The notes under the pieces are model-generated. The model worked only from the letters and a program-made list of their open reading frames with translations. It made no database searches and had not been told where the DNA came from. From Caulobacter sp. AP07 (GTDB lineage: Bacteria; Pseudomonadota; Alphaproteobacteria; Caulobacterales; Caulobacteraceae), in NCBI RefSeq assembly GCF_000281955.1, contig NZ_AKKF01000008.1:1-64000 (forward strand): 64,000 nucleotides of DNA, written 5' to 3'. A program made the position numbers and the translations under genes. Below are positions 6,831-18,867 of this stretch, in pieces; position 1 is the first letter of the stretch; the number at the start of each line of letters is the position of its first letter.

Positions 6831-7718
6831 ATGAACGCCTTTACCCCCATCGCGGCCAGCGAGACGCCCGACTATGCCGGCCTGACCGTGACGCCGGCCG
6901 GCCCGGTGCTGGGCGCGGAAATCTCCGGTCTCGACCTTCGCCAGCCGCTGGCGCCGGAAATCGTCGCCGCGATCCGCTCGGCCCTGCTGCGCCACAAGGT
7001 GGTGTTCTTCCGCGACCAGGACATCAGCCACGAGGACCATGTCCGTTTCGGCCGCTATTTCGGGGACTTGGAAGGACATCCTGTCACCGCCCACGTGCCC
7101 GGCTTTCCCGAGATCCTGCACATCGAGGCCGCCGACGGCATGAAACTGCGCGAGGAGATCGTGCCGCTGGTTCGCGTGGCCAACAAGTGGCACACCGACG
7201 TCACTTTCCGGCCCGCGCCGTCGATGGGCGGGGTGCTGCGGGCCCGCCACCTGCCGCCGCTGGGCGGCGACACCCTGTTCGCCGACACCGCGGCCATCTA
7301 TCGCGACCTGCCGCAGGCGCTGAAGGACCAGTTGGCGACCCTGACCGCCGAGCACGACATCCTGCAGAGCTATGGCTACCGGGTCGACGAAGCCAAGCGG
7401 GCCGAACTGCGCGCCGCCTATCCGCTCCAGGCCCATCCGGTGATCCGCACCCATCCCGAGACCGGCGAGAAGCACCTGTTCGTCAACAAGGTCTTCACGA
7501 CGCGGATCCTGGGCCTGCCCGAAGACGAGGCCAAGCGCCTGCTGGCCGACCTGCTGGACCGGGTGAAGACCCCCGAGTACCAGGTCCGCTTCCGCTGGAC
7601 GCCCAACGCCATCGTGTTCTGGGACAACCGCGCCACCCAGCACTACGCCATCCTCGACTACTGGCCGCAGGAGCGCACCGTCGAGCGGGTGACCATCCAG
7701 GGCGACGTGCCGTATTGA
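6831..7718 (+). CDS. TauD/TfdA-family 2-oxoglutarate-dependent dioxygenase
   Basis: Fe(II)/2-oxoglutarate dioxygenase of 295 residues. The iron triad is visible: H121 and D123 in KWHTDVTF and the distal His in NRATQHYAI (near residue 271), followed by the basic ERTVERV region that binds the 2-oxoglutarate carboxylate. The strong ribosome site GGGAGG precedes the ATG. Relatives release sulfite from taurine, other alkanesulfonates or alkyl sulfates; with a flavin monooxygenase gene just downstream, organosulfur scavenging is the most likely role. The exact substrate cannot be told, so no tauD symbol is given. Confidence 0.9.
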   Translation: MNAFTPIAASETPDYAGLTVTPAGPVLGAEISGLDLRQPLAPEIVAAIRSALLRHKVVFFRDQDISHEDHVRFGRYFGDLEGHPVTAHVPGFPEILHIEAADGMKLREEIVPLVRVANKWHTDVTFRPAPSMGGVLRARHLPPLGGDTLFADTAAIYRDLPQALKDQLATLTAEHDILQSYGYRVDEAKRAELRAAYPLQAHPVIRTHPETGEKHLFVNKVFTTRILGLPEDEAKRLLADLLDRVKTPEYQVRFRWTPNAIVFWDNRATQHYAILDYWPQERTVERVTIQGDVPY

Positions 7719-7733
7719 GGTGATCCTGGGTTT

Positions 7734-7769
7734 ATATTGCCCGGGCTTATCAATGGCTTGAGGCAATAT
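7734..7769. repeat. inverted repeat between the dioxygenase and monooxygenase genes
   Basis: ATATTGCC (7734-7741) and GGCAATAT (7762-7769) form perfect 8-base arms 20 bases apart. It could be an operator pair for a sulfur-status regulator or a weak hairpin; there is no U-tract, so it does not look like an intrinsic terminator. Confidence 0.4.
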
Positions 7770-7833
7770 CGTTAGATTGCCGGGTCGCGGCCCCTTACCT
7801 ACGGCCTGTCATTTTCAGAACAGGCCTCGCCCC

Positions 7834-9165
7834 ATGTCCCAACCGCGTCAGATCAAGCTGGGCTTCATCCTGCACGGGGTCGGTCCCGGCTGGGGCGACT
7901 GGCGCCATCCCGACGCCCAGCCGACGGCGAGCACGGACTTCCAGTTCTACAAGCGCCAGGCCCAGGTCGCCGAGGCCGGCAAGTTCGACTTCCTGTTCGT
8001 CGCCGACAGCGTCTACATCACCGAGAAGTCCAGCCCGCACTATCTGAACCGTTTCGAGCCGCTGACCATCCTGTCGGCCCTGGCCGGCGCGACCAACAAC
8101 ATCGGCCTCGTCGGCACCCTGACGGTCAGCTACAGCGAGCCGTTCAACGTCGCGCGGCAGTTCTCGTCGCTGGACCACATCAGCGGCGGCCGGGCCGGCT
8201 GGAACGTCGTGACCTCGTGGCTCGAGGGCAGCGCCGCCAACTACAGCCGCGAAAAGCACTACGCCCACGACGTCCGCTACCGGCTGGCCGGCGAGTATCT
8301 CGACGTCGTCCAGGGCCTGTGGGACTCGTGGGAAGACGACGCCCTGACCTTCGACAAGGCCAGCGGCCAGTTCTTCGATCCGGCCAAGCTGCACACCCTG
8401 GACCACAAGGGCGAATTCTTCTCGGTGAAGGGACCGCTGAACATCGCGCGCTCGCCGCAGGGCCAGCCGGTGATCTTCCAGGCCGGAGCCTCGGAGGACG
8501 GCAAGAACTTCGCCGCCAAGCGGGCCGACGCCATCTTCGTCTCGCACGACGAACTGGACGCCGCCCAGGCCTATTACAAGGACATCAAGGCTCGAGCCGC
8601 TGGTTTCGGCCGCGATCCCGATCAGCTTCACGTCCTGCCGGCCGCCCGTCCGGTGGTCGGCCGCACGGCGGAGGAGGCCGAGGCCAAGTACCAGGAACTG
8701 ATCAATCTGGTGTCGATCGACAACGCCCTGTCGATGCTGGGGCGGCCGTTCAACGACTACGACTTCTCGGTTCACGACCTCGACGCGCCGTTCCCCGACG
8801 TCTCCGAGCACGGCGCCAACAGCAACCAGAGCGCCTCGCTGAAGATCCTGGCCGCCGCCAAGGCCGAGAACCTCAGCCTGCGCCAGGTCGCCCTGCGCTT
8901 CGCCACGCCGCGCGGCCACTTCGTCGGCGCCCCCGAGCAGGTGGCGGACGCCCTGCAACTGTGGTTCGAGGAACGCGGCTCCGACGGCTTCGTGCTGTTC
9001 GAGTCCGTGCCGGGGCAGCTGGAGCTGTTCGTCGAGCTGGTCGTGCCGATCCTCCAGGCTCGCGGCATCTATCGCCAGGACTACGAGTCCACGACCTTCC
9101 GGGGCAATCTGGGCGTCGATTTCGCGGTCAACCGCCACGCGGTCAAGCGCGACGTCGCGGCCTGA
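7834..9165 (+). CDS. LLM-class flavin-dependent monooxygenase (NtaA/SnaA/DszA/SoxA family)
   Basis: 443-residue FMNH2-dependent monooxygenase of the bacterial-luciferase superfamily, in the long NtaA/DszA branch: [16 protein letters not shown] near the N-terminus, the [11 protein letters not shown] segment, [23 protein letters not shown], and [15 protein letters not shown]. Enzymes of this branch oxidise nitrilotriacetate, dibenzothiophene sulfone and alkane sulfur compounds using reduced flavin from a partner reductase, which is not encoded nearby. I chose the ATG at 7834 over an in-frame TTG 57 bases upstream. With the TauD-like gene before it, a role in using organic sulfur is inferred. 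Confidence 0.88.
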
Positions 9166-9180
9166 CCCCGGCGCCGGACC

Positions 9181-9855
9181 TCATCGAGACAGGCGCGGTC
9201 CGGCGTCGATGCGGCGCTCCATCAACAGCAGCGTCAGCATCACAAGGAAGGCGAAGGCCAGCAGGGCGGCCGAAAGTTGGTGGGCCTTGTCCCACTCCAG
9301 GGCCTCGACCAGGCGGTAGATCTCGATCGACAGCACCTCGGTCTCGCCCGGAATGCCGCCGCCCAGCATCATCACCACCCCGAACTCGCCGACCGTATGG
9401 GCGAAGGCCAGGATGGCGGCGACCGCGTAGCCGGGCAGGGCCAGGGGCAGGGCGACGCGCAGGAAGGCGTTCCACGGCGAGGCGCCCAGGGTGGCCGCCG
9501 CCTCCATCGGCTCGTCGCCGATCGCGATGAAGGCGTTACGCAGCGGCTGGACGGCGAAGGGCAGGGAATAGATCAGCGAACCGATCACCAGCCCCTCGAA
9601 GGTGAAGGCCAGGGTGCGGACACCGAACGGGTGCAGCAGGGTCATCAGCGGGCTGTGCGGCCCCAGGGCGATCAGCAGGTAGAAACCCAGGACGGTTGGC
9701 GGCAGCACGATCGGCAGGGCGACCAGCGCCCCCACCGGCGCCTTCCAGCGCGAACGACCGCGGGCCAGCCACCAGGCCAGGGGCGTGGCGAGGATCAGCA
9801 GCAGGGCCGTGGTGATCCCCGCCAGCTTGACCGTCAGCCACGCCACATCGAGCAT
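9181..9855 (-). CDS. modB: molybdate ABC transporter permease
   Basis: Inner-membrane permease of 224 residues, the normal ModB size, with about five or six membrane segments. The ABC-permease EAA loop is seen at [28 protein letters not shown]. The opening [25 protein letters not shown] and the stretch [22 protein letters not shown] are typical of ModB. It starts 2 nt after the modA stop. The ATPase gene modC, usually next, is absent: the 3' side runs straight into the convergent monooxygenase gene. An ATPase must come from elsewhere. Confidence 0.94.
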
Positions 9856-9857
9856 GA

Positions 9858-10619
9858 TCAGTGAACCTCGTAACCGTAGCGCTTGATGATGGCCTTGGCG
9901 TCCTTGCCCTTCAAGAACTGAAGGAAGGCCTTGGCCGCGACGCTGTCGGCGCCGGTCTTCAGCAGCACCGCCTGCTGGTCGATCGGCGTGTGGTCGGCGG
10001 CGGGGACCAGCCAGCGCGAGCCGCCGGTCTCGTTGGCCACCTGCGACAGGGCCACGAAGCCGAGCTCGGCCGCGCCGGTCTGCACATACTGGTAGGTCTG
10101 GGTGATCGACGCGCCGGTGACGACCTTCGGCTTCAGCGTGTCATAGAGCTTGAGCCTGGTCAGGGTCTCGACCGCCGCCTGGCCGTAGGGCGCGGCCTTG
10201 GGGTCGGCGATGGCCAGTTTCTCGAACTTGCCGGTCCTCAGCACCGCGCCCTTGGCGTCGACCAGGCCCGGCGTCTTGCTGAACAGCACCAGGCGGCCGG
10301 TGGCGTAGGTGAAGCGCGTGCCGGCCACCGCCAGGCCGTCGGCCTCGGCCTTGGCCGGGCGCTCGCTGTCGGCCGACAGGAACACCTCATACGGCGCGCC
10401 GTTGGCGATCTGGGTGTAGAACTGGCCGGAAGACCCGAAGCTGAGCACGACCTTGTGACCGGTGGCGGCCTCGAACCTGGCGGCGATCTCCTTGGCCGGT
10501 TCGGTGAAGTTGGCGGCGACCGCGACCTTGGTCTCGGCGGCGACGGCGGACGCCGCGCCCAGAGCCAGCGACAGGGCGCCGGCGAGGGCTGCGGCCAGGA
10601 AGGGGCGGCGGTTCAGCAT
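9858..10619 (-). CDS. modA: periplasmic molybdate-binding protein
   Basis: Exported binding protein of 253 residues with a signal peptide ending near AVAAE, then the ModA core: [45 protein letters not shown], and [16 protein letters not shown]. The oxyanion is held by Ser/backbone groups in these segments in known ModA proteins. GGGGA lies upstream of the ATG. It is transcribed away from the TonB-dependent receptor gene, with a ModE-like palindrome between them, so repression by molybdate-loaded ModE is expected. Tungstate could also be a ligand. Confidence 0.95.
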
Positions 10620-10662
10620 GGTTGGAATCCCCGGGCGTACATGGCGTGAGCTGGGCTATTCG

Positions 10663-10685
10663 GTTATGTAGTAAGTCTACATAAC
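10663..10685. promoter_or_regulatory. ModE-type operator between modA and the TonB-dependent receptor
   Basis: GTTATGTAG (10663-10671), five bases, then CTACATAAC (10677-10685): perfect 9-base arms. The known ModE box has half-sites close to TATATAACG in an inverted repeat with a short spacer, and this site resembles it, though the exact half-site differs. It is 44 bases upstream of modA and 11 bases upstream of the receptor start, and a modE gene follows the receptor, so it could repress both divergent units when molybdate is plentiful. Confidence 0.8.
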
Positions 10686-10695
10686 GGGGTTTCGC

Positions 10696-12747
10696 ATGTT
10701 GTTCAGGGGTTTTTTGCTGGCCAGTTCGCTGCTGGCCGGGACGGCGCACGCTCAGGCGGTTTCGAGTCAGGCCATGTCGAGCGACGTCTACGCCCTGGGC
10801 GAGGTGCGGGTCACGGCGCGTGACCGGGCCGGGGCGATGGTCGGGGGCTCGGTGATCCCTTCGGAAGACCTGCGCCGGTTCGACAAGGTCAGCATCGACC
10901 AGGCCCTGGACCTGATCCCCGGCGCCGTGGCCGGCAATAGCGGCGGTTCGCGCAACGAGCGGCTGGTGTACATCCGTGGCTTCGACCGTTTCCAGGCCAC
11001 CTTGTCGATCGATGGCGTGCGGGTGTTCCTGCCGGCCGACAACCGCATCGACTTCGCCCGCTTCCTGACCGCCGACCTCTCCGAGGTTCAGGTCTCCAAG
11101 GGCTATGTCTCGGTGCTGGACGGGCCCGGCGGGATCGGCGGGGCGATCAACCTCGTCACCCGCAAGCCTTCAGAACCCTTCGAGGGGGAAATCCGCCTGG
11201 GCGCGGGTTTCGACGCCGACGGTTCGCTGAACAGCGACGCCGTCTCGGGCCGGATTGGCGGTCGCACCGACCGTTTTTACGCCCAGGTCAGCGGCGCACG
11301 GAACGCACGCACCCACTGGGCGCTGCCGGACAGCTATCGTTCGACCACGCTGGAGAACGGCGGCTATCGCGATCATTCCGACAGCGAAGATTGGCGCGTC
11401 AACGCCAAGGTCGGGTTCACGCCCAACGACACCGATGAATACTCGCTGACCTACACCCGGCAGAAGGGCGAGAAGAACGCGCCGTTCCATGTCACCGACA
11501 CCGCAAGCACCCGCTTCTGGACCTGGCCCTACTGGAACCTCGACAGCGTGGCGCTGTTGACCAAGACCCAGGTCGCCGACAACGCCTATGTGAAGACCCG
11601 TTTCTATCGCAACACGTTCGAAAACGGCCTGTTCTCCTACGACAACGCCCGTCAGAACACCCAGACCCTGGGGCGGGCCTTCCGCTCCTCCTACGATGAT
11701 GTCGCGTATGGCGGGAACGTCGAGCTGGGCGTCGGCCTGACCGCGTCCAACACCCTGAAGGCCGCCGCCTTCTATCGCCGCGACAAGCACGTGGAGTGGC
11801 AACGGACCTTCGCTCCGGCCCTGACCGAGCCGCGCCAGACGACCACGGAAGACACCACCTCCCTGGCCCTGGAGGACACTCAGCACTTCGGCGCGCGGGT
11901 CGATCTGGTGGTCGGCGCATCGTACGACCACCGCGACCTGTCGATGGCCCAGGACTACAATTCCAACGCCTTCGTCTACTACCCTCTGACCGACGACGGC
12001 GCCTGGAACGGCCAGGCGGCGCTGATCTGGAGGCCGACCGACGCCAGCCAACTCCATGCGAGCATCTCGTCGCGGGCCCGTTTCCCGACCCTGTTCGAGC
12101 GCTACAGCTCGCGGTTCGGCACGGCGATCCCCAATCCCAGCGTCAAGGCCGAGCGGGCGGTGAACTATGAGGTCGGCGGCAAGGTCGAACTGACGCCCGC
12201 CATCTCGGTCGAAGGCGCGGCCTTCTACAGCGACGTCCAGGACGCCCTGATCCAGATCCCGGTCGCTCTCGGCCCGCCGTTCGGCACGGTCAGCCAGACC
12301 CGCAACGCCGGAGACGGCGAATATTACGGCGTCGAAGCGGCGATCACCGCCCAGCTCTCGCCGAGCCTGACCCTGGGCGGCAACTACACCTATCTGCACC
12401 GCGCGCTGACCGATCCGACCAACGCTGCCTTCCGGCCGACCGGCGTTCCGGACCATAAGCTGTTCGTCCATGCCGACTGGCGCCTGGGTCGACGCCTGAC
12501 CCTGACGCCGAACATCGAGGCCGCCTCGACGCGCTGGACGGTGACCTCCAGTTCGCTGGTCTCGCCCGTCCGCCACTACAGGACGGGCGGCTACATCCTG
12601 GCCAACCTCTCGGCCCAGGTGGCGATCACGCCGAAGATCGACCTGATGCTCGGCGCTCGCAATCTGCTCGATCAGCGCTATCAACTGGTCGACGGCTTTC
12701 CCGAGGAGGGCCGCAACTTCAGGGCCGATCTGCGCGTGAGATTCTAG
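10696..12747 (+). CDS. TonB-dependent receptor, predicted molybdenum uptake
   Basis: Outer-membrane receptor of 683 residues: signal peptide ending at TAHAQ, TonB-box-like YALGEVRVTA, plug with LVYIRGFDRFQATLSIDGVRVFL and GPGGIGGAINLVTRKP, then a beta-barrel ending in Phe (FRADLRVRF). It abuts modE (stop TAG immediately followed by the modE ATG) and is divergent from modAB across the ModE-like site. I infer that it imports molybdate bound to a chelator or another molybdenum/tungsten species. The family cannot be read for substrate by sequence, and a siderophore receptor captured by ModE control is the alternative. Confidence 0.9.
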   Translation: MLFRGFLLASSLLAGTAHAQAVSSQAMSSDVYALGEVRVTARDRAGAMVGGSVIPSEDLRRFDKVSIDQALDLIPGAVAGNSGGSRNERLVYIRGFDRFQATLSIDGVRVFLPADNRIDFARFLTADLSEVQVSKGYVSVLDGPGGIGGAINLVTRKPSEPFEGEIRLGAGFDADGSLNSDAVSGRIGGRTDRFYAQVSGARNARTHWALPDSYRSTTLENGGYRDHSDSEDWRVNAKVGFTPNDTDEYSLTYTRQKGEKNAPFHVTDTASTRFWTWPYWNLDSVALLTKTQVADNAYVKTRFYRNTFENGLFSYDNARQNTQTLGRAFRSSYDDVAYGGNVELGVGLTASNTLKAAAFYRRDKHVEWQRTFAPALTEPRQTTTEDTTSLALEDTQHFGARVDLVVGASYDHRDLSMAQDYNSNAFVYYPLTDDGAWNGQAALIWRPTDASQLHASISSRARFPTLFERYSSRFGTAIPNPSVKAERAVNYEVGGKVELTPAISVEGAAFYSDVQDALIQIPVALGPPFGTVSQTRNAGDGEYYGVEAAITAQLSPSLTLGGNYTYLHRALTDPTNAAFRPTGVPDHKLFVHADWRLGRRLTLTPNIEAASTRWTVTSSSLVSPVRHYRTGGYILANLSAQVAITPKIDLMLGARNLLDQRYQLVDGFPEEGRNFRADLRVRF

Positions 12748-13536
12748 ATGTCCGTCGATGGTGATCTCAGCGCGTCCCTGATCCTGCGGCGCGGGGCGCT
12801 GGCCCGCGTCGGGCTGGAGCGCATCGCGCTGATCGAGGCGGTCGGTGACCTTGGCTCGATCAGCGCCGCCGCCAAGCGGCTGGGCCTGAGCTACAAGGGG
12901 GCCTGGGACGGGGTGCAGGCCCTCAACAACCTGTTCGACGCTCCTTTGATCATCGCCAACGCCGGCGGCAAGGCGGGCGGGGCGGCGGTCGTCACCGCGC
13001 GCGGCCATGCCGTGATCAAGGCCTTTCGCGAGGTCGAACGCGAGATCGGCGCCGCCCTGTCGCGGCTGGAGGCGGGCCTCGCGGCGCCGGGCCAGGACCT
13101 GGGCGAGCTGTTCTGGAGCCTGGGCCTGCGCACCAGCGCCCGCAACGCGCTGCGGGGAATGGTCGCCCGCATCGCCGACGACGAGGTGACCGCCACGGTG
13201 ACCCTGTCGCTGGGCGATGGCGTCGAGATCGTCTCGATCATCACCCGGCGCAGCCGCGACGAGCTGGGTCTCGCGGTCGGCGAACCGGCCATCGCCCTGA
13301 TCAAGTCCAGCTTCGTGAGCCTGGCCGCCGCGGCCCCCCTCGACGGCGGGGTCAATCGCCTGGCCGGTGTGGTCGTCGACCGCGAGGACGGCCTCGCCGC
13401 CAGCGAGATCAGCCTGACCCTGGCCGCCGGCAAGACCCTGGTCGCCACCGTGTCGCGAGGCGCGGTCGTTCCGGCGCTCGGCGACCGTGTCGTCGCGATC
13501 ATCGAACCCTCCAACGTCATCCTCGCCGTCGAATAG
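12748..13536 (+). CDS. modE: molybdate-responsive transcriptional regulator
   Basis: Full-length ModE of 262 residues. The N-terminal winged helix is clear (ERIALIEAVGDLGSISAAAKRLGLSYKGAWDGVQALNN), followed by two Mop/TOBE repeats: NALRGMVARIADDEVTATVTL with an IITRRSRDELGL turn, and NRLAGVVVDREDGLAASEISLTL. These bind molybdate or tungstate and switch DNA binding. Directly downstream of the receptor with no gap, so co-transcribed, and likely autoregulated through the palindrome at 10663-10685. Length and both domains fit E. coli ModE. Confidence 0.95.
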   Translation: MSVDGDLSASLILRRGALARVGLERIALIEAVGDLGSISAAAKRLGLSYKGAWDGVQALNNLFDAPLIIANAGGKAGGAAVVTARGHAVIKAFREVEREIGAALSRLEAGLAAPGQDLGELFWSLGLRTSARNALRGMVARIADDEVTATVTLSLGDGVEIVSIITRRSRDELGLAVGEPAIALIKSSFVSLAAAAPLDGGVNRLAGVVVDREDGLAASEISLTLAAGKTLVATVSRGAVVPALGDRVVAIIEPSNVILAVE

Positions 13537-13546
13537 GATTCCGCCC

Positions 13547-14050
13547 GTGAAAGCCCTCGTGTTCGCCCTCTGCTTCGTCGGCCTGTCAACCGGCGCGACC
13601 GCCCAGACCCTCGCGCTCAAGGGGCCGACGGGTCAGACGGCGACGGTCAGCGTCGCGGACCTGGCAAGCCTGCCGCGCGTCAGCTTCGCGTTCGACAGCC
13701 ATGGCGAGACCCACGTCTACGAGGGCCCGCTGTTGATCGACGTGTTGGCCAAGGTCGGAACGCCGACCGGCAAGGCGATCCACGGGCCGGAGATGGCCGA
13801 CGCGGTCCTGGTCAAGGCCCAGGACGGCTACCAGGTGGTGTTCGGCCTGGCTGAGCTCGATCCCGGCACTCGTCCCAACCGCATCATCCTGGCCGACAAG
13901 GCCGACGGCGCGCCGCTGGGCGGCAAGGACGGGGCGTTCAAGGTGGTGGCCGAGGGCGACCTGCGTCCGGCCCGCTCGGCGCGGATGGTCAGCCAGATCG
14001 AGGTCCTGCGCCTGGCCGCGCCCGACGTCGCGGCCGCCCACCAACACTAG
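13547..14050 (+). CDS. small exported protein with an oxidoreductase molybdopterin-binding-like fold
   Basis: 167 residues from a GTG start with AGGA eight bases upstream. It begins with a signal peptide ending near GATAQ. The mature part (VADLASLPRVSFAF, GPLLIDVLAKVG, DGYQVVFGLAEL, RIILADKADG, SARMVSQIEVL) resembles the molybdopterin-binding domain of sulfite-oxidase/YedY-type enzymes, but it is only one domain long and shows no Cys to coordinate molybdenum. It ends in a His-rich tail (HQH). It is the last gene of the receptor-modE unit. I suggest a periplasmic molybdenum-binding or accessory role; the function is not known to me. Confidence 0.75.
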   Translation: MKALVFALCFVGLSTGATAQTLALKGPTGQTATVSVADLASLPRVSFAFDSHGETHVYEGPLLIDVLAKVGTPTGKAIHGPEMADAVLVKAQDGYQVVFGLAELDPGTRPNRIILADKADGAPLGGKDGAFKVVAEGDLRPARSARMVSQIEVLRLAAPDVAAAHQH

Positions 14051-14763: not shown

Positions 14764-15261
14764 ATGATCCGGCTGTACGGTGAGAGGCGGGCCAATCTGG
14801 TGCGCATCTTCGCCGCGCGGCTGAGGTCGGTCGCCGAGGCCGAAGACCTGGTCCAGGACCTCTTCCTCAAGGTTCAGGCCCTGGGCGAGCTGGAGGTCGA
14901 GGGCGACGGCTCGGCGCTGCTGTTTCGGATGGCCAACAACCTGATGCTGGACCGGCTTCGCAGCCAGGCCCGAGCGGGGGCGCGCGACGAGAACTGGCGT
15001 GGCCTGCAGACTACCACCCTGGGCGACCAGCCGGTCGCCGACGCGCCTTCGGCCGAGGACGTCGTGGCCGGCCGGCAGAGACTGGACGTGATGATGGCGA
15101 CGTTGGAAACCCTGCCGACCCAGGTGGCCAAGGCCTTCACCCTGCACAAGCTGGACGGGCTCAGCCACGCCGAGACCGCCGTCGCCATGGGGGTCAGCCG
15201 CAGCGCGATCGAGAAGCATGTGAGCGCCGCCTTGAAGGCGTTGATGGCGAAGCTGCCATGA
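14764..15261 (+). CDS. ECF RNA polymerase sigma factor, FecI type
   Basis: 165-residue ECF sigma factor. Region 2 is present (AARLRSVAEAEDLVQDLFLKVQ, then LLFRMANNLMLDRLRSQAR) and region 4 (LPTQVAKAFTLHKLDGLSHAETAVAMGVSRSAIEKHVSAAL) has the helix-turn-helix that reads the -35. The ribosome site at the chosen ATG is weak. It is followed by a FecR-type regulator and a TonB transducer, the usual surface-signalling triplet: a ligand on the receptor releases the sigma through FecR to activate the receptor operon. Fur-like sites upstream fit iron starvation as the first trigger. Confidence 0.93.
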   Translation: MIRLYGERRANLVRIFAARLRSVAEAEDLVQDLFLKVQALGELEVEGDGSALLFRMANNLMLDRLRSQARAGARDENWRGLQTTTLGDQPVADAPSAEDVVAGRQRLDVMMATLETLPTQVAKAFTLHKLDGLSHAETAVAMGVSRSAIEKHVSAALKALMAKLP

Positions 15262-15358
15262 AGAATTTTGCGACCTTGAAAACGAGTTTCGGAGGTTGCG
15301 GGGCTTTGGCGACGTCATACCCTTGCAAGGACGCCGCGCGGCGTCAGGACGGAGCGAA

Positions 15359-16330
15359 ATGACGCGGTCCCAGACGGACATCGAAGTCGCGATCGACTGG
15401 CTGGTCCTGCTGCAGGGGGACACGGTCACCGAGGACGACTGGCGCGCCTTCGACGCCTGGCTGACGGCGTCGCCCGCTCACGCGCTGGCCTATGACCAGG
15501 CCCAGGCCTTCGACCAGCGGCTGGATCTCGACGCCCGTCTGGTCGAACGTGCGCCATCGGTCACGGCCACGGCCTCGACAAACGTCATCGCCCTGCGCCC
15601 CACCCGTCGTGTCTGGCTTTGGTCGGCCGGGAGCGCCATCGCCGCGGCGTTCGTCGCCGGCGCCGTCCTGCTTCCGGGCAGCGGTCTCCTGGGCGGCCGG
15701 GAAACCCGCTATGTGACCGGGGTCGGAGAGCGCAGGACCATCGCCCTCGAAGACGGCACCCGCATCGAGTTGAACGCCGCCTCACGCCTGACCGTCCGGT
15801 TCGAGCGCAATGCCCGGCACGTCCGGATGGACGACGCCCAGGCCTTCTTCGACGTCGCCAAGGATTCGCGGCGTCCGTTCCTGATCGAGGCCGGCGACAC
15901 CCAGGTGCGGGTGGTCGGCACGCGGTTCGACGTCCGCCATCGGGACGGACAGGTCGCGGTGGCCGTCCAGCGCGGCCTGGTCGAGGTGCGCCCGGCCAGC
16001 GCCGCGCCGGTCCGCCTGCGGCCCGGGCAGGGACTTTCCCACGTCGAGGGGCAGGACGATGCGCGCGTCGCGACCGTTCCCGTCGATGAGGTCACCGGCT
16101 GGCGTCAGGGGCGGTTGATCTATCGGGACCGGCCGCTGTCGGAGATCGTCGGCGACCTGAACCGGCTTTTCCCCCGTCCGGTGAAGCTGGCTGACGCGCG
16201 CGCCGCCGACATGCGACTGTCCGGCGTGTTGATCGTCGATGAGCAGGATGCGATGGTCGGCCGACTGTCACATCTGCTTCCCGTTCGAACGACGACGACC
16301 AACGACGCTATCGTGATCCGGGCGCGCTAA
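15359..16330 (+). CDS. FecR-type anti-sigma/sigma regulator
   Basis: 323 residues from an ATG with GGAG six bases upstream. Domain order is as in FecR: an N-terminal cytoplasmic DUF4880 (IDWLVLLQGDTVTEDDWRAFDAWL and ASPAHALAYDQAQ), one membrane helix (SAGSAIAAAFVAGAVLL), then periplasmic FecR beta-sandwich (GERRTIALEDGTRIELNAAS, VRVVGTRFDVRHRDGQ) and a C-terminal STN-like part (GRLIYRDRPLSEIVGDLNRL). It links the outer-membrane receptor's N-terminal signalling domain to the sigma factor encoded upstream. Confidence 0.94.
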   Translation: MTRSQTDIEVAIDWLVLLQGDTVTEDDWRAFDAWLTASPAHALAYDQAQAFDQRLDLDARLVERAPSVTATASTNVIALRPTRRVWLWSAGSAIAAAFVAGAVLLPGSGLLGGRETRYVTGVGERRTIALEDGTRIELNAASRLTVRFERNARHVRMDDAQAFFDVAKDSRRPFLIEAGDTQVRVVGTRFDVRHRDGQVAVAVQRGLVEVRPASAAPVRLRPGQGLSHVEGQDDARVATVPVDEVTGWRQGRLIYRDRPLSEIVGDLNRLFPRPVKLADARAADMRLSGVLIVDEQDAMVGRLSHLLPVRTTTTNDAIVIRAR

Positions 16331-16373
16331 GGCCTTGCCGACGGGACCGGAATCGTTCGAAGCGCGAAGCTTG

Positions 16374-16393
16374 AGCTCTAGGGGGGTAGAGCT
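16374..16393 (+). promoter_or_regulatory. hairpin in the transducer leader
   Basis: AGCTCTA (16374-16380), loop GGGGGG, TAGAGCT (16387-16393): a perfect 7-base stem immediately before the Shine-Dalgarno GGAG of the TonB-transducer gene. It could slow translation or mark an mRNA processing point between fecR and the receptor. There is no U-tract, so it is not a terminator. Confidence 0.4.
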
Positions 16394-16401
16394 GGAGCCT
16401 G

Positions 16402-18867
16402 ATGATCCCGGACGCGGATTTTCCGTTTCGACGCCGTTCTGACAGCCCAGGCTCGCCCGGGGCGCGGTCGGCCGCCGGCCTGCTGACCTCAGGTTCCGTC
16501 TTCGCCCTGACCTTGGTTTCAAGCCTGACCCTGGTCGCGCAGGCCCACGCCGAACCCACCCGTTACACTTTCAGGATTCCCGCCAAGGCCCGGTCGGAAG
16601 CGCTGATCGATCTTGGCGTCCAGGCGCGCGTCACGCTTGGCGGAGCCTCGTCCTGCCCGGGGCGGAGCCCGGCCGTGGTCGGCGTCCTGACGCTGCGCCA
16701 GGCCCTGGACGCCGTGACGTCGGGCGCGCCGTGCCGGTTCGAGATTCTCGGCGACGCCACGGTCAGCATCGCGCCCGAACGCCCCGCGCCGCGCCCGGCG
16801 CAGCCCAAGGCGGCCGAACCGGCCCTGCCTGTCGATGGCGTGATCGTCACCGCCACCAAGCGCGCGACACGGCTCGGCGCGACGGCCGGCGGGGTCAGCG
16901 TGATTGGCCCGGGACGGCTTCACGACGCCGGCTCGGTCGACACCAAGAGCATTTCGCAGCAGACGGCGGGCTTCATCACCACCAACCTCGGCGCGGCCCG
17001 CAACAAGATCATGCTGCGCGGCCTGTCGGACGGCGCCTTCACGGGCCGCACCCAGCAGACCGTGGGAACCTATCTCGACAACATCCCGCTGACCTACAAC
17101 GCCCCCGACCCCGACCTTCGGCTGATCGACGTCGATCGCGTCGAGATCCTGCGCGGTCCCCAGGGCGCGCTCTACGGCGGCGGGTCGTTGAGCGGGGTCT
17201 ACCGGATCGTGTCGCGCAAGCCGGTGCTGGACGAATGGTCGGGGGCGGTGAAGGTCGGCGCGGCCGCCACGGAGTCCGGCTCTCCCAGCGGTCGCCTGGA
17301 GGGTGTGGTCAACCTGCCGCTCGTCACGGGGCGAGCGGCGCTGCGGTTGGCGGCCTATAGCGACGTGGACGGCGGCTATGTCGACGACGTCAACCTGCGC
17401 CTTTCGAACGTCGATCGCACGACCCGGACCGGCGGTCGCGCGGCGCTGTCCGCCGTGCTCGGTGAGAACTGGTCGTTGACGATCTCGGGGGCGCGTCAGG
17501 ACCTGCACGCCACCGACAGCCAATACACGACGCCCAGCCTGGGTGGTCAGAAACGCGCCAACCAGGTGCGGGAGACCCACGACAACGTGCTGCAGCAGGG
17601 CGCGGTGACGCTGACCGGGACGGGGTCCTGGGGAAGGTTCGAGTCGTCCACCGGCTATGTCCGTCACCGCTTCGCCAGCCGCTTCGACGCCACGGCGGCC
17701 CTGAACCCGGCGAGCGTCTCGGCCGTCGACGTCGGCCTGTTCGATGAGGCCAGCAAGGTCAGGCTGTTGGTGGAGGACGCGGTGCTGTCCTCGCCCGACA
17801 GCGGCCGTTTCCGGTGGTTGCTCGGGCTCTACGGACTGGCCAGCCTGGAGGACAGCGACGGCGAACTGCGGGCCCGCATCGCCAAGGACCCCTCGCGGCT
17901 GCTCTACCTGGAGGACCGGCGTGACAGGCGTCGGGAGTTGGCCCTGTATGGCGAGACCGCCTATGACCTGGGTGGCGGATGGACCGTGAGCCTGGGCGGT
18001 CGGGCCTTCCGCACCGCTGTACGCACGACCTCGGCGATCACGGCGCCGGCCCCCGGACAATCCCGCAGATTCGAACGGCAGGCCCTTTTCACGGGCGTTT
18101 CTCCCAAGTTGTCGCTGCAACGAACGTGGGGCTCGGGTGGGATTGTCTATCTCCTGACCTCGGAGGGGTACAGGTCCGGCGGGTTCAATACGGGAGGACT
18201 CGTCGCGCTGTCGGCTCTGCGCGACTCGTTCAAGCCCGACCATCTGCGCAATTACGAGATTGGCGTCGGCGCCAGCCCGCTGGAAGGTCGCGTGACCCTG
18301 CGCGCCGCGCTGTTCCACGACGTGTGGACCGATATCCAGACCGACCAGTATCTGAGCTCGGGGCTGTCCTACACGGCCAATGTCGGCGATGGTCGCAACA
18401 CGGGCCTGGAACTCGAGGGCACGGCGCATGTCAGCCCAAACCTCACGGTCGAGGCCAATGCGCTGTTCAGCCGACCGCGCCTGAGCAGGGTGGACCAGAA
18501 CTTCGCGTCGGCGGCCCAGAGCGAACTGCCCGGCGTTCCGGACGTCTCGGCCGGGGCCATGACCCGCTACCAGCGAGACCTGGCCGCGGACCGGCGCCTC
18601 GTGCTGACCGCGGAGATGAAATATGTCGGCCGTTCGCGGCTGACCTTCGACCGGCGATTTTCGCCGTCCATGGGCGACTACGTGACCGGACGCCTGTCGG
18701 CCGAGGTGGCGACACCGACCTGGAACTTCACCTTCGCGGTCACCAATCCCGCCAATGCGTCCAGCGACACCTTCGCCTATGGCAACCCCTTCAGCTTCGG
18801 CCAGGTGCGCCAGGTCACGCCCCTGCGCCCGCGCACCTGGAGCCTGGATGTCTCCCGCGTCTTCTGA
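16402..18867 (+). CDS. TonB-dependent receptor/transducer with STN signalling domain (FecA-like)
   Basis: 821-residue outer-membrane receptor. After a signal peptide (ending near QAHAE) comes an STN domain, about residues 52-125 (YTFRIPAKARSEALIDLGVQA through APCRFEILGDATVSIAP), which contacts FecR in the periplasm. A plug follows (NKIMLRGLSDGAFTGRTQQTVGTYLDNIPL; RVEILRGPQGALYGGG) and then a barrel ending with the terminal Phe in SLDVSRVF. It is the effector of the sigma/FecR pair upstream; the ligand is probably a ferric siderophore, but this is inference. Confidence 0.94.
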   Translation: MIPDADFPFRRRSDSPGSPGARSAAGLLTSGSVFALTLVSSLTLVAQAHAEPTRYTFRIPAKARSEALIDLGVQARVTLGGASSCPGRSPAVVGVLTLRQALDAVTSGAPCRFEILGDATVSIAPERPAPRPAQPKAAEPALPVDGVIVTATKRATRLGATAGGVSVIGPGRLHDAGSVDTKSISQQTAGFITTNLGAARNKIMLRGLSDGAFTGRTQQTVGTYLDNIPLTYNAPDPDLRLIDVDRVEILRGPQGALYGGGSLSGVYRIVSRKPVLDEWSGAVKVGAAATESGSPSGRLEGVVNLPLVTGRAALRLAAYSDVDGGYVDDVNLRLSNVDRTTRTGGRAALSAVLGENWSLTISGARQDLHATDSQYTTPSLGGQKRANQVRETHDNVLQQGAVTLTGTGSWGRFESSTGYVRHRFASRFDATAALNPASVSAVDVGLFDEASKVRLLVEDAVLSSPDSGRFRWLLGLYGLASLEDSDGELRARIAKDPSRLLYLEDRRDRRRELALYGETAYDLGGGWTVSLGGRAFRTAVRTTSAITAPAPGQSRRFERQALFTGVSPKLSLQRTWGSGGIVYLLTSEGYRSGGFNTGGLVALSALRDSFKPDHLRNYEIGVGASPLEGRVTLRAALFHDVWTDIQTDQYLSSGLSYTANVGDGRNTGLELEGTAHVSPNLTVEANALFSRPRLSRVDQNFASAAQSELPGVPDVSAGAMTRYQRDLAADRRLVLTAEMKYVGRSRLTFDRRFSPSMGDYVTGRLSAEVATPTWNFTFAVTNPANASSDTFAYGNPFSFGQVRQVTPLRPRTWSLDVSRVF

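Follow-up and report, generated by a model that had tools for sequence, protein, structure and literature searches.

The stretch analysed here (the window) comprises 64,000 nucleotides of Caulobacter sp. AP07 (contig NZ_AKKF01000008.1, positions 1 to 64,000). At positions 9181–14050 it carries a compact locus in which the molybdate transport genes modA and modB stand divergent from the gene for a TonB-dependent receptor (TBDR), which is followed by modE and by the gene for a small exported protein. Transport of molybdenum (Mo) across the outer membrane is usually ascribed to passive porins. Comparison with related loci makes it likely, in our judgment, that this locus serves to scavenge molybdenum under the control of ModE and extends this uptake to the outer membrane, with predicted roles for its products in repression, transport and the periplasm. 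The receptor belongs to a TBDR group that is apparently undescribed.

A predicted ModE-type operator between modA and the receptor gene

The initial annotation had placed a perfect 9-5-9 inverted repeat between the divergent modA and receptor starts, and this repeat was found at positions 10663–10685. It reads GTTATGTAG-N5-CTACATAAC and lies 43 bp from the start of modA and 10 bp ahead of the start of the receptor gene. Together with its flanks the palindrome reads GGTTATGT-N9-ACATAACG, compared with CGTTATAT-N8-ACATAACG for the site upstream of modA in E. coli MG1655. The consensus CGNTATRT-N8/9-AYATANCG is matched at 13 of 14 positions by the window site and at 14 of 14 by the E. coli site, which places the repeat among operators of this type, with a half-site spacing of 9 instead of the 8 seen in E. 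coli. Allowing up to three mismatches, the window and the whole assembly (5.6 Mb) each contain a single copy of the palindrome, and 100 shuffles of the window contain none. This uniqueness, the shuffles, the conservation in relatives and the control windows described below rule out a chance palindrome. A sigma-70 consensus scan of positions 10500–10900 returned no promoter-like or terminator-like site. The consensus fit and the conservation suggest that the palindrome is a ModE-type operator common to the divergent modA and receptor promoters, to which ModE would bind.

Conservation of the site in the genus and family

The palindrome is kept in related genomes. Among 23 genomes sampled in the genus, 19 gave a modE hit, and every one of these has the site (up to three mismatches) at its mod locus; of the four without modE, one carries it somewhere. 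A family sample of 149 genomes gave the site at the same stringency in 59 and a reversed control pattern in 20, so that a lone three-mismatch site in a relative can be due to chance. Among 44 modE loci examined in the family, some of them picked because the site was present, 33 have the site at up to three mismatches in the fetched stretch and 11 do not. Two genomes (G082 and G091) have modA separate from modE, and there the site is again present.

Receptor orthologs (E ≤ 1e-130) were found in 11 of 148 family genomes and 7 of 23 genus genomes, and 10 of the 11 family orthologs carry the site at or near their start. In the window and in two other genomes (G123 and G136) the receptor is placed between the site and modE. 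Six further Caulobacter genomes encode an ortholog of 79–80% identity on a contig that differs from that of modE, and in each of them a separate palindrome with one or two mismatches lies 11 bp before the receptor start; a tblastn search of the 12 kb around the receptor in three of the six found no mod gene. Another ortholog (G032) has a two-mismatch site upstream, and one (G053) lacks a site at that stringency. The sister genome G116 (modE 95%) still carries the palindrome, modAB and modE but no receptor gene, and its copy of the small exported gene is cut down to the first 22 bases. This pattern suggests that the compact arrangement existed before the two genomes diverged, and that the receptor and the small gene were lost in G116.

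The site follows the receptor even away from the mod genes, and boxes also precede many of its distant relatives (see below). Comparison thereby lends strong support to the control of the receptor by ModE that had been predicted for this locus.

ModE-like boxes upstream of distant receptor relatives

Named genomes were scanned with the receptor alignment, and the best 80 of 174 relatives (80–43% identity) were analysed. Their taxa include Caulobacter, Phenylobacterium, Azospirillum, Novosphingobium, Sphingobium, Mesorhizobium, Nitrobacter, Methylosinus, Rhodocyclus and Lysobacterales, among others. Related loci among the 80 are not independent, but their gene orders differ: we observed receptor-modE-small1-modA2, a receptor divergent from modAB, and a regulator with only a helix-turn-helix (HTH) domain adjoining the receptor, and one locus (L268) has the order HTH-modABC followed by MbnH-partner-receptor.

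A box of at least 12/14 lies within 350 bp upstream of 57 of the 80 relatives. Among the controls it was found in 28 of 1580 windows taken from these loci and in 1 of 800 Markov sequences. The 14-position consensus used here was derived after viewing these same 80 loci. Because the consensus was built on the loci tested, the search was repeated with the E. coli half-sites alone. At a threshold of at least 12/16 these were found at 52 of the 80 relatives and in 17 of 1580 controls, and at a threshold of at least 14/16 at 27 relatives and in none of the 1580 controls. This half-site test and a sample of the phylum are the less dependent checks. The phylum sample, taken later (398 genomes), held nine genomes with a match at E ≤ 1e-110, namely the genome of the window and eight others, whose receptors are 31–38% identical to that of the window. 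Five of these eight have a box of at least 12, and three have a ModE or ModE-HTH protein within 1.5 kb, one of them together with modA and the small protein.

The flanks fetched around the 80 relatives (up to 7 kb) contain modA, modB, modC, modE or a ModE-HTH gene in 32 cases (31 by other thresholds). The box is present at 26 of these 32, and at 31 of the 48 for which no such neighbor was found. Short ModE-HTH proteins (129–137 aa), too short for TOBE domains, adjoin the receptors at L254:9017-9427 and L291:904-1290, the former matching TIGR00637 at 80 bits, and other receptors likewise have ModE-HTH matches nearby. Genes of the family DUF2478 (PF10649), which we presume to be linked to molybdenum, were seen near the receptor at L273:2280-2870 (R. 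palustris) and L292:3375-4019.

Identity of the genes at the locus

All five genes that the initial annotation had recognized could be identified. On the reverse strand, modB (9181–9855) encodes a molybdate ATP-binding cassette (ABC) permease (TIGR02141, 232.7 bits, cut-off 182.6) and modA (9858–10619) the periplasmic molybdate-binding protein (TIGR01256, 249.8 bits, cut-off 62.5), both by NCBIfam equivalog models. The receptor (10696–12747, forward strand, 683 aa) has a plug domain (PF07715, 58.1 bits) and a beta-barrel (PF00593, 131.1 bits), both above cut-off, and is on these grounds a TBDR. Its NCBIfam scan gave matches to 22 models, none of which reached its own cut-off; the best curated resemblance is to the siderophore-receptor model TIGR01783, at 171.3 bits under a cut-off of 223.5, and does not place the protein in that family.

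The modE gene (12748–13536, forward strand) encodes a protein with an HTH_1 domain and two TOBE stretches above cut-off (Mop, 89.6 bits, cut-off 55), and its best solved-structure matches are the ModE structures 1b9m/1o7l. Ser126, Arg128, Thr163 and Lys183 (E. coli numbering), which we take to be the molybdate-site residues of E. coli ModE, are kept. The protein misses the cut-offs of the ModE_repress domain (88.2 versus 98.5) and of PRK10676 (117.2 versus 369), which weighs against its assignment to the ModE class. The small exported protein (13547–14050, forward strand, 167 aa) is described below; its preferred start is the GTG at 13547, as the alternative at 13487 would overlap modE.

Downstream of the molybdenum locus, positions 14764–18867 encode an extracytoplasmic function sigma factor, a FecR-like protein and a second TBDR (16402–18867), together a FecIRA-type set. 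Such a trio, judged by eye, likewise lies downstream of modE in G116. On the other side, a TauD-family dioxygenase and an NtaA/DmoA-type flavin mononucleotide (FMN) monooxygenase (6831–9165) adjoin modB and may form an organosulfur gene set; the FMN monooxygenase is next to modB in G116 as well.

Absence of modC

As had been noted, modC is absent beside modB. The search was extended to the rest of the genome, where no ATPase reaches the ModC cut-off, and a complete ModABC was not found there. A search of the genome for the TOBE domain PF03459 matched only ModE. This test is insufficient by itself, since the ModC proteins of three relatives are short (237–242 aa). The short ModC of a relative, compared with the genus, has an ortholog (66%, 315 bits) in one of 31 genomes, and the runner-up scores 144.5 bits; the one genome in question is 76% complete with 5% contamination. 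Its matches in the genome of the window are 39–46% identical and are not orthologs by score. The missing modC had been regarded as an oddity of this locus. The absence itself holds, but it is a trait of the genus rather than of the locus. Loss of modC in this assembly only is ruled out on the same grounds: its 326 contigs make a gap possible, but the genus is without the gene too. CysA is present (TIGR00968, 367.8 bits, cut-off 342.75), and one might guess that it serves ModB.

Periplasmic proteins associated with the receptor

The AlphaFold model of the small exported protein (pLDDT 86, pTM 0.79) has a SUOX fold. In Foldseek its best solved match is the pterin-binding PruR (7kom, E 3.2e-7), with sulfite oxidase (3hc2, E 3.8e-7) almost level. 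The sequence scores 17.5 bits against PF00174, under the cut-off of 24, while a relative (L106) scores 25.8 bits. Its sole cysteine sits in the signal peptide and none follows (compare the molybdenum cofactor cysteine). On this fold the protein is a candidate PruR-like protein, with putative pterin binding. A second copy, 40% identical, is encoded elsewhere in the genome, and G116 keeps a 37% paralog elsewhere. Relatives of the small protein stand with modE and modA2 in three loci (L168–L170).

The neighbors that recur around the receptor relatives are modE or ModE-HTH genes, modA, modB or modC, an MbnH-family di-heme enzyme with a small partner, and the PruR/SUOX-fold protein. The flanks of the 80 relatives contain a small exported protein match in 43 cases (at least 45 bits, some weak), an MbnH-family di-heme enzyme in 34 (at least 70 bits) and the PruR/SUOX-fold protein in seven. 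The best PDB match of the Caulobacter MbnH-like enzyme is 6e1c (E 1.1e-70). Its best family, TIGR04039, is matched at 296–301 bits in two relatives, under the cut-off of 362.85, and the MbnH match in G086 is a fragment only. A DHOR di-heme oxidoreductase is encoded at the loci of Reyranella and Methylosinus. The genome of the window has no match to the MbnH family or to its small partner, and thus no MbnT-MbnP-MbnH set.

MbnP was considered as the identity of the partner and rejected, as the protein has no Pfam match at cut-off, no NCBIfam match and only weak PDB sequence matches (E ≥ 0.19). Its predicted fold (pLDDT 89.7) resembles beta-sandwich modules of the collagen-binding and carbohydrate-binding kinds. 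In the loci examined, distant relatives of the partner adjoin unrelated genes, so that finding the partner does not by itself indicate a molybdenum function. In G106 and G138 a SUOX-fold small gene lies behind a ModE-type site (zero and three mismatches, respectively) with the receptor absent, and a search at E 1e-10 gave no modE in G106. In G126, apparently at the same spot, the MbnH partner gene is found behind a two-mismatch site. It is as if the two small exported proteins can replace each other.

Proposed mechanism and cargo

Under sufficient molybdate, Mo-loaded ModE would bind the palindrome and shut both the modAB unit and the unit of receptor, modE and small protein; when molybdate is short, both divergent units would be released. 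The receptor, powered by TonB, would then bring a molybdenum species into the periplasm, where ModA would capture molybdate for import by ModB and an ATPase encoded elsewhere. The SUOX-fold small protein, or in relatives the di-heme MbnH-like enzyme with its partner, is probably the periplasmic factor that handles the cargo or sets it free.

The initial annotation had suggested that the receptor takes up a bound molybdenum form or that molybdate is very scarce, and either may apply. As to the cargo, molybdate complexed with an organic ligand seems somewhat more likely than the free oxyanion. Pointers toward a chelate are the sub-threshold resemblance to siderophore receptors, the Peripla_BP_2 and FecCD neighbors of the Afipia relative (L258) and the Peripla_BP_2 neighbor in Mesorhizobium, and the Azotobacter receptors that are induced without molybdenum and vanadium (PMC9542535). 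We put forward tentatively, as a possibility, that the TBDR group found in alpha-, beta- and gamma-proteobacteria consists of true molybdophore receptors under ModE or ModE-HTH regulators, with release by di-heme oxidases (MbnH-like, DHOR) and their partner or by the PruR-like protein, in which case a Mo-pterin could also be the cargo.

Several observations weigh against a ModE-controlled molybdenum module. The substrate of the receptor cannot be read from its sequence, and the annotated genes at the locus include no chelator-biosynthesis genes. The receptor is an accessory gene to judge from its patchy occurrence in genus and family, is missing from 12 of the 19 modE-bearing genus genomes, and is rare in the phylum sample. 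No box at 12/14 precedes 23 of the 80 relatives, nor three of the eight from the phylum, and no mod gene was found in the flanks of 48 of the 80, some of whose contigs are short. The chance level of the three-mismatch search and the origin of the box consensus, both given above, belong here too. Some Rhizobiales relatives adjoin ABC genes of the heme or siderophore type, including a heme-type ABC ATPase next to the Afipia receptor, so that transport of other substrates is possible in the wider family.

Within the same general reading, the cargo may be molybdate (or tungstate) as the free oxyanion, which TonB energy would concentrate at nanomolar levels where diffusion is too slow, with no chelator involved. 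This is conceivable, although we would not expect it. The operator common to the receptor and modA/modB fits this form, and the molybdate delivered would suit ModA directly. Molybdenum in fresh water is typically below 20 nM (PMC3440940), and a similar argument is made for scarce ions generally in a study of Caulobacter Zur (PMC4176598). It sits less well with the receptor's best curated resemblance, which is to siderophore receptors even if below threshold, and with the Afipia and Mesorhizobium relatives, which adjoin transporter families typical of chelates.

ModE could also induce the receptor at molybdenum shortage for the sake of another nutrient, for instance one used in a Mo-free pathway. 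In Azotobacter, ModE sites occur in the promoters of vnfA1 and anfA, which encode activators of the alternative nitrogenases, molybdenum shortage induces the substitute, and a modE1 mutation relieves molybdenum repression incompletely (PMC9542535); the heme-type ATPase beside the Afipia receptor points the same way. We regard this explanation as unlikely, since mod or ModE-HTH genes flank 32 of the 80 relatives in several orders and no other pathway is as recurrent in the loci examined.

That the receptor scavenges molybdenum bound to a pterin (Mo-pterin or a breakdown product), with the PruR-like small protein binding it in the periplasm, is very improbable. The idea draws on the near tie between PruR and sulfite oxidases in the structural search, on the joint loss of the small gene copy and the receptor in G116, and on the link of the small protein to modE and modA in L168–L170. 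Yet the small protein accompanies just 7 of the 80 receptor relatives and stands behind its own site without the receptor in G106 and G138, and free molybdopterin is unstable in air. A system for copper or another metal, like methanobactin MbnT-MbnP-MbnH with the ModE-type regulator incidental, would explain the MbnH-family enzyme within the relatives' receptor operon, but deserves hardly any credence given that neither MbnH nor its partner is matched in the genome of the window, that the partner has no Pfam match at cut-off or NCBIfam match and folds like collagen- or carbohydrate-binding modules, and that ModE keeps the presumed molybdate site.

Comparison with known systems

The literature search, made mostly in papers free of subscription, brought up no recognizable ModE-controlled TBDR; a prior prediction may exist, for instance in a regulon database such as RegPrecise. 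The available part of a comparative regulon paper (PMC5343134) contained no passage on such a receptor. Regulation of TBDRs by a metal is known from Caulobacter itself, in the case of zinc; a TBDR linked to ModE is apparently undescribed. The receptor is a candidate molybdophore receptor, with no dedicated ModE-controlled one in the literature searched. A ModE-linked group in alpha-, beta- and gamma-proteobacteria makes an energy-driven outer-membrane step for molybdenum directly testable. The group could also serve as a marker of life under molybdenum limitation in freshwater and soil habitats; its members include Azospirillum.

Like this locus, the ModE-modABC system of E. coli MG1655 has a site of this class ahead of modA, and its ModE has the same domain order; E. 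coli differs in having modC, a half-site spacing of 8, and no receptor gene in the stretch examined. Azotobacter vinelandii, which fixes nitrogen and produces compounds that bind molybdenum (PMC3440940), has in its VnfA1 class B three TonB-dependent siderophore receptors and a modABC operon that are on only without molybdenum and vanadium (PMC9542535), but under the control of VnfA1 and sigma-54 rather than ModE. In Pseudomonas aeruginosa, secreted ModA and IcmP have been proposed as the outer-membrane molybdate step (PMC8602904); there a secreted ModA acts with an outer-membrane metalloproteinase, whereas here a TBDR stands beside ModE. The MbnT/MbnP/MbnH systems for methanobactin resemble the receptor's relatives in that a TBDR often occurs with a di-heme enzyme and a small partner (PMC3621798). 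They differ in their copper cargo, their biosynthesis genes and the family of the partner, and MbnH and the partner were not found in the genome of the window. In the Zur regulon of Caulobacter, the repressor controls an ABC importer and the TBDRs ZnuK, ZnuL and ZnuM through inverted-repeat operators, and ZnuK and ZnuL are important when cells starve for zinc (PMC4176598). There the metal is zinc, sensed by Zur, and the cargo is backed by mutants; here it would be molybdate, sensed by ModE. With a metal-sensing repressor set over both an importer and TBDRs, the Zur regulon nevertheless provides, within the same genus, a precedent for metal-controlled TBDRs.

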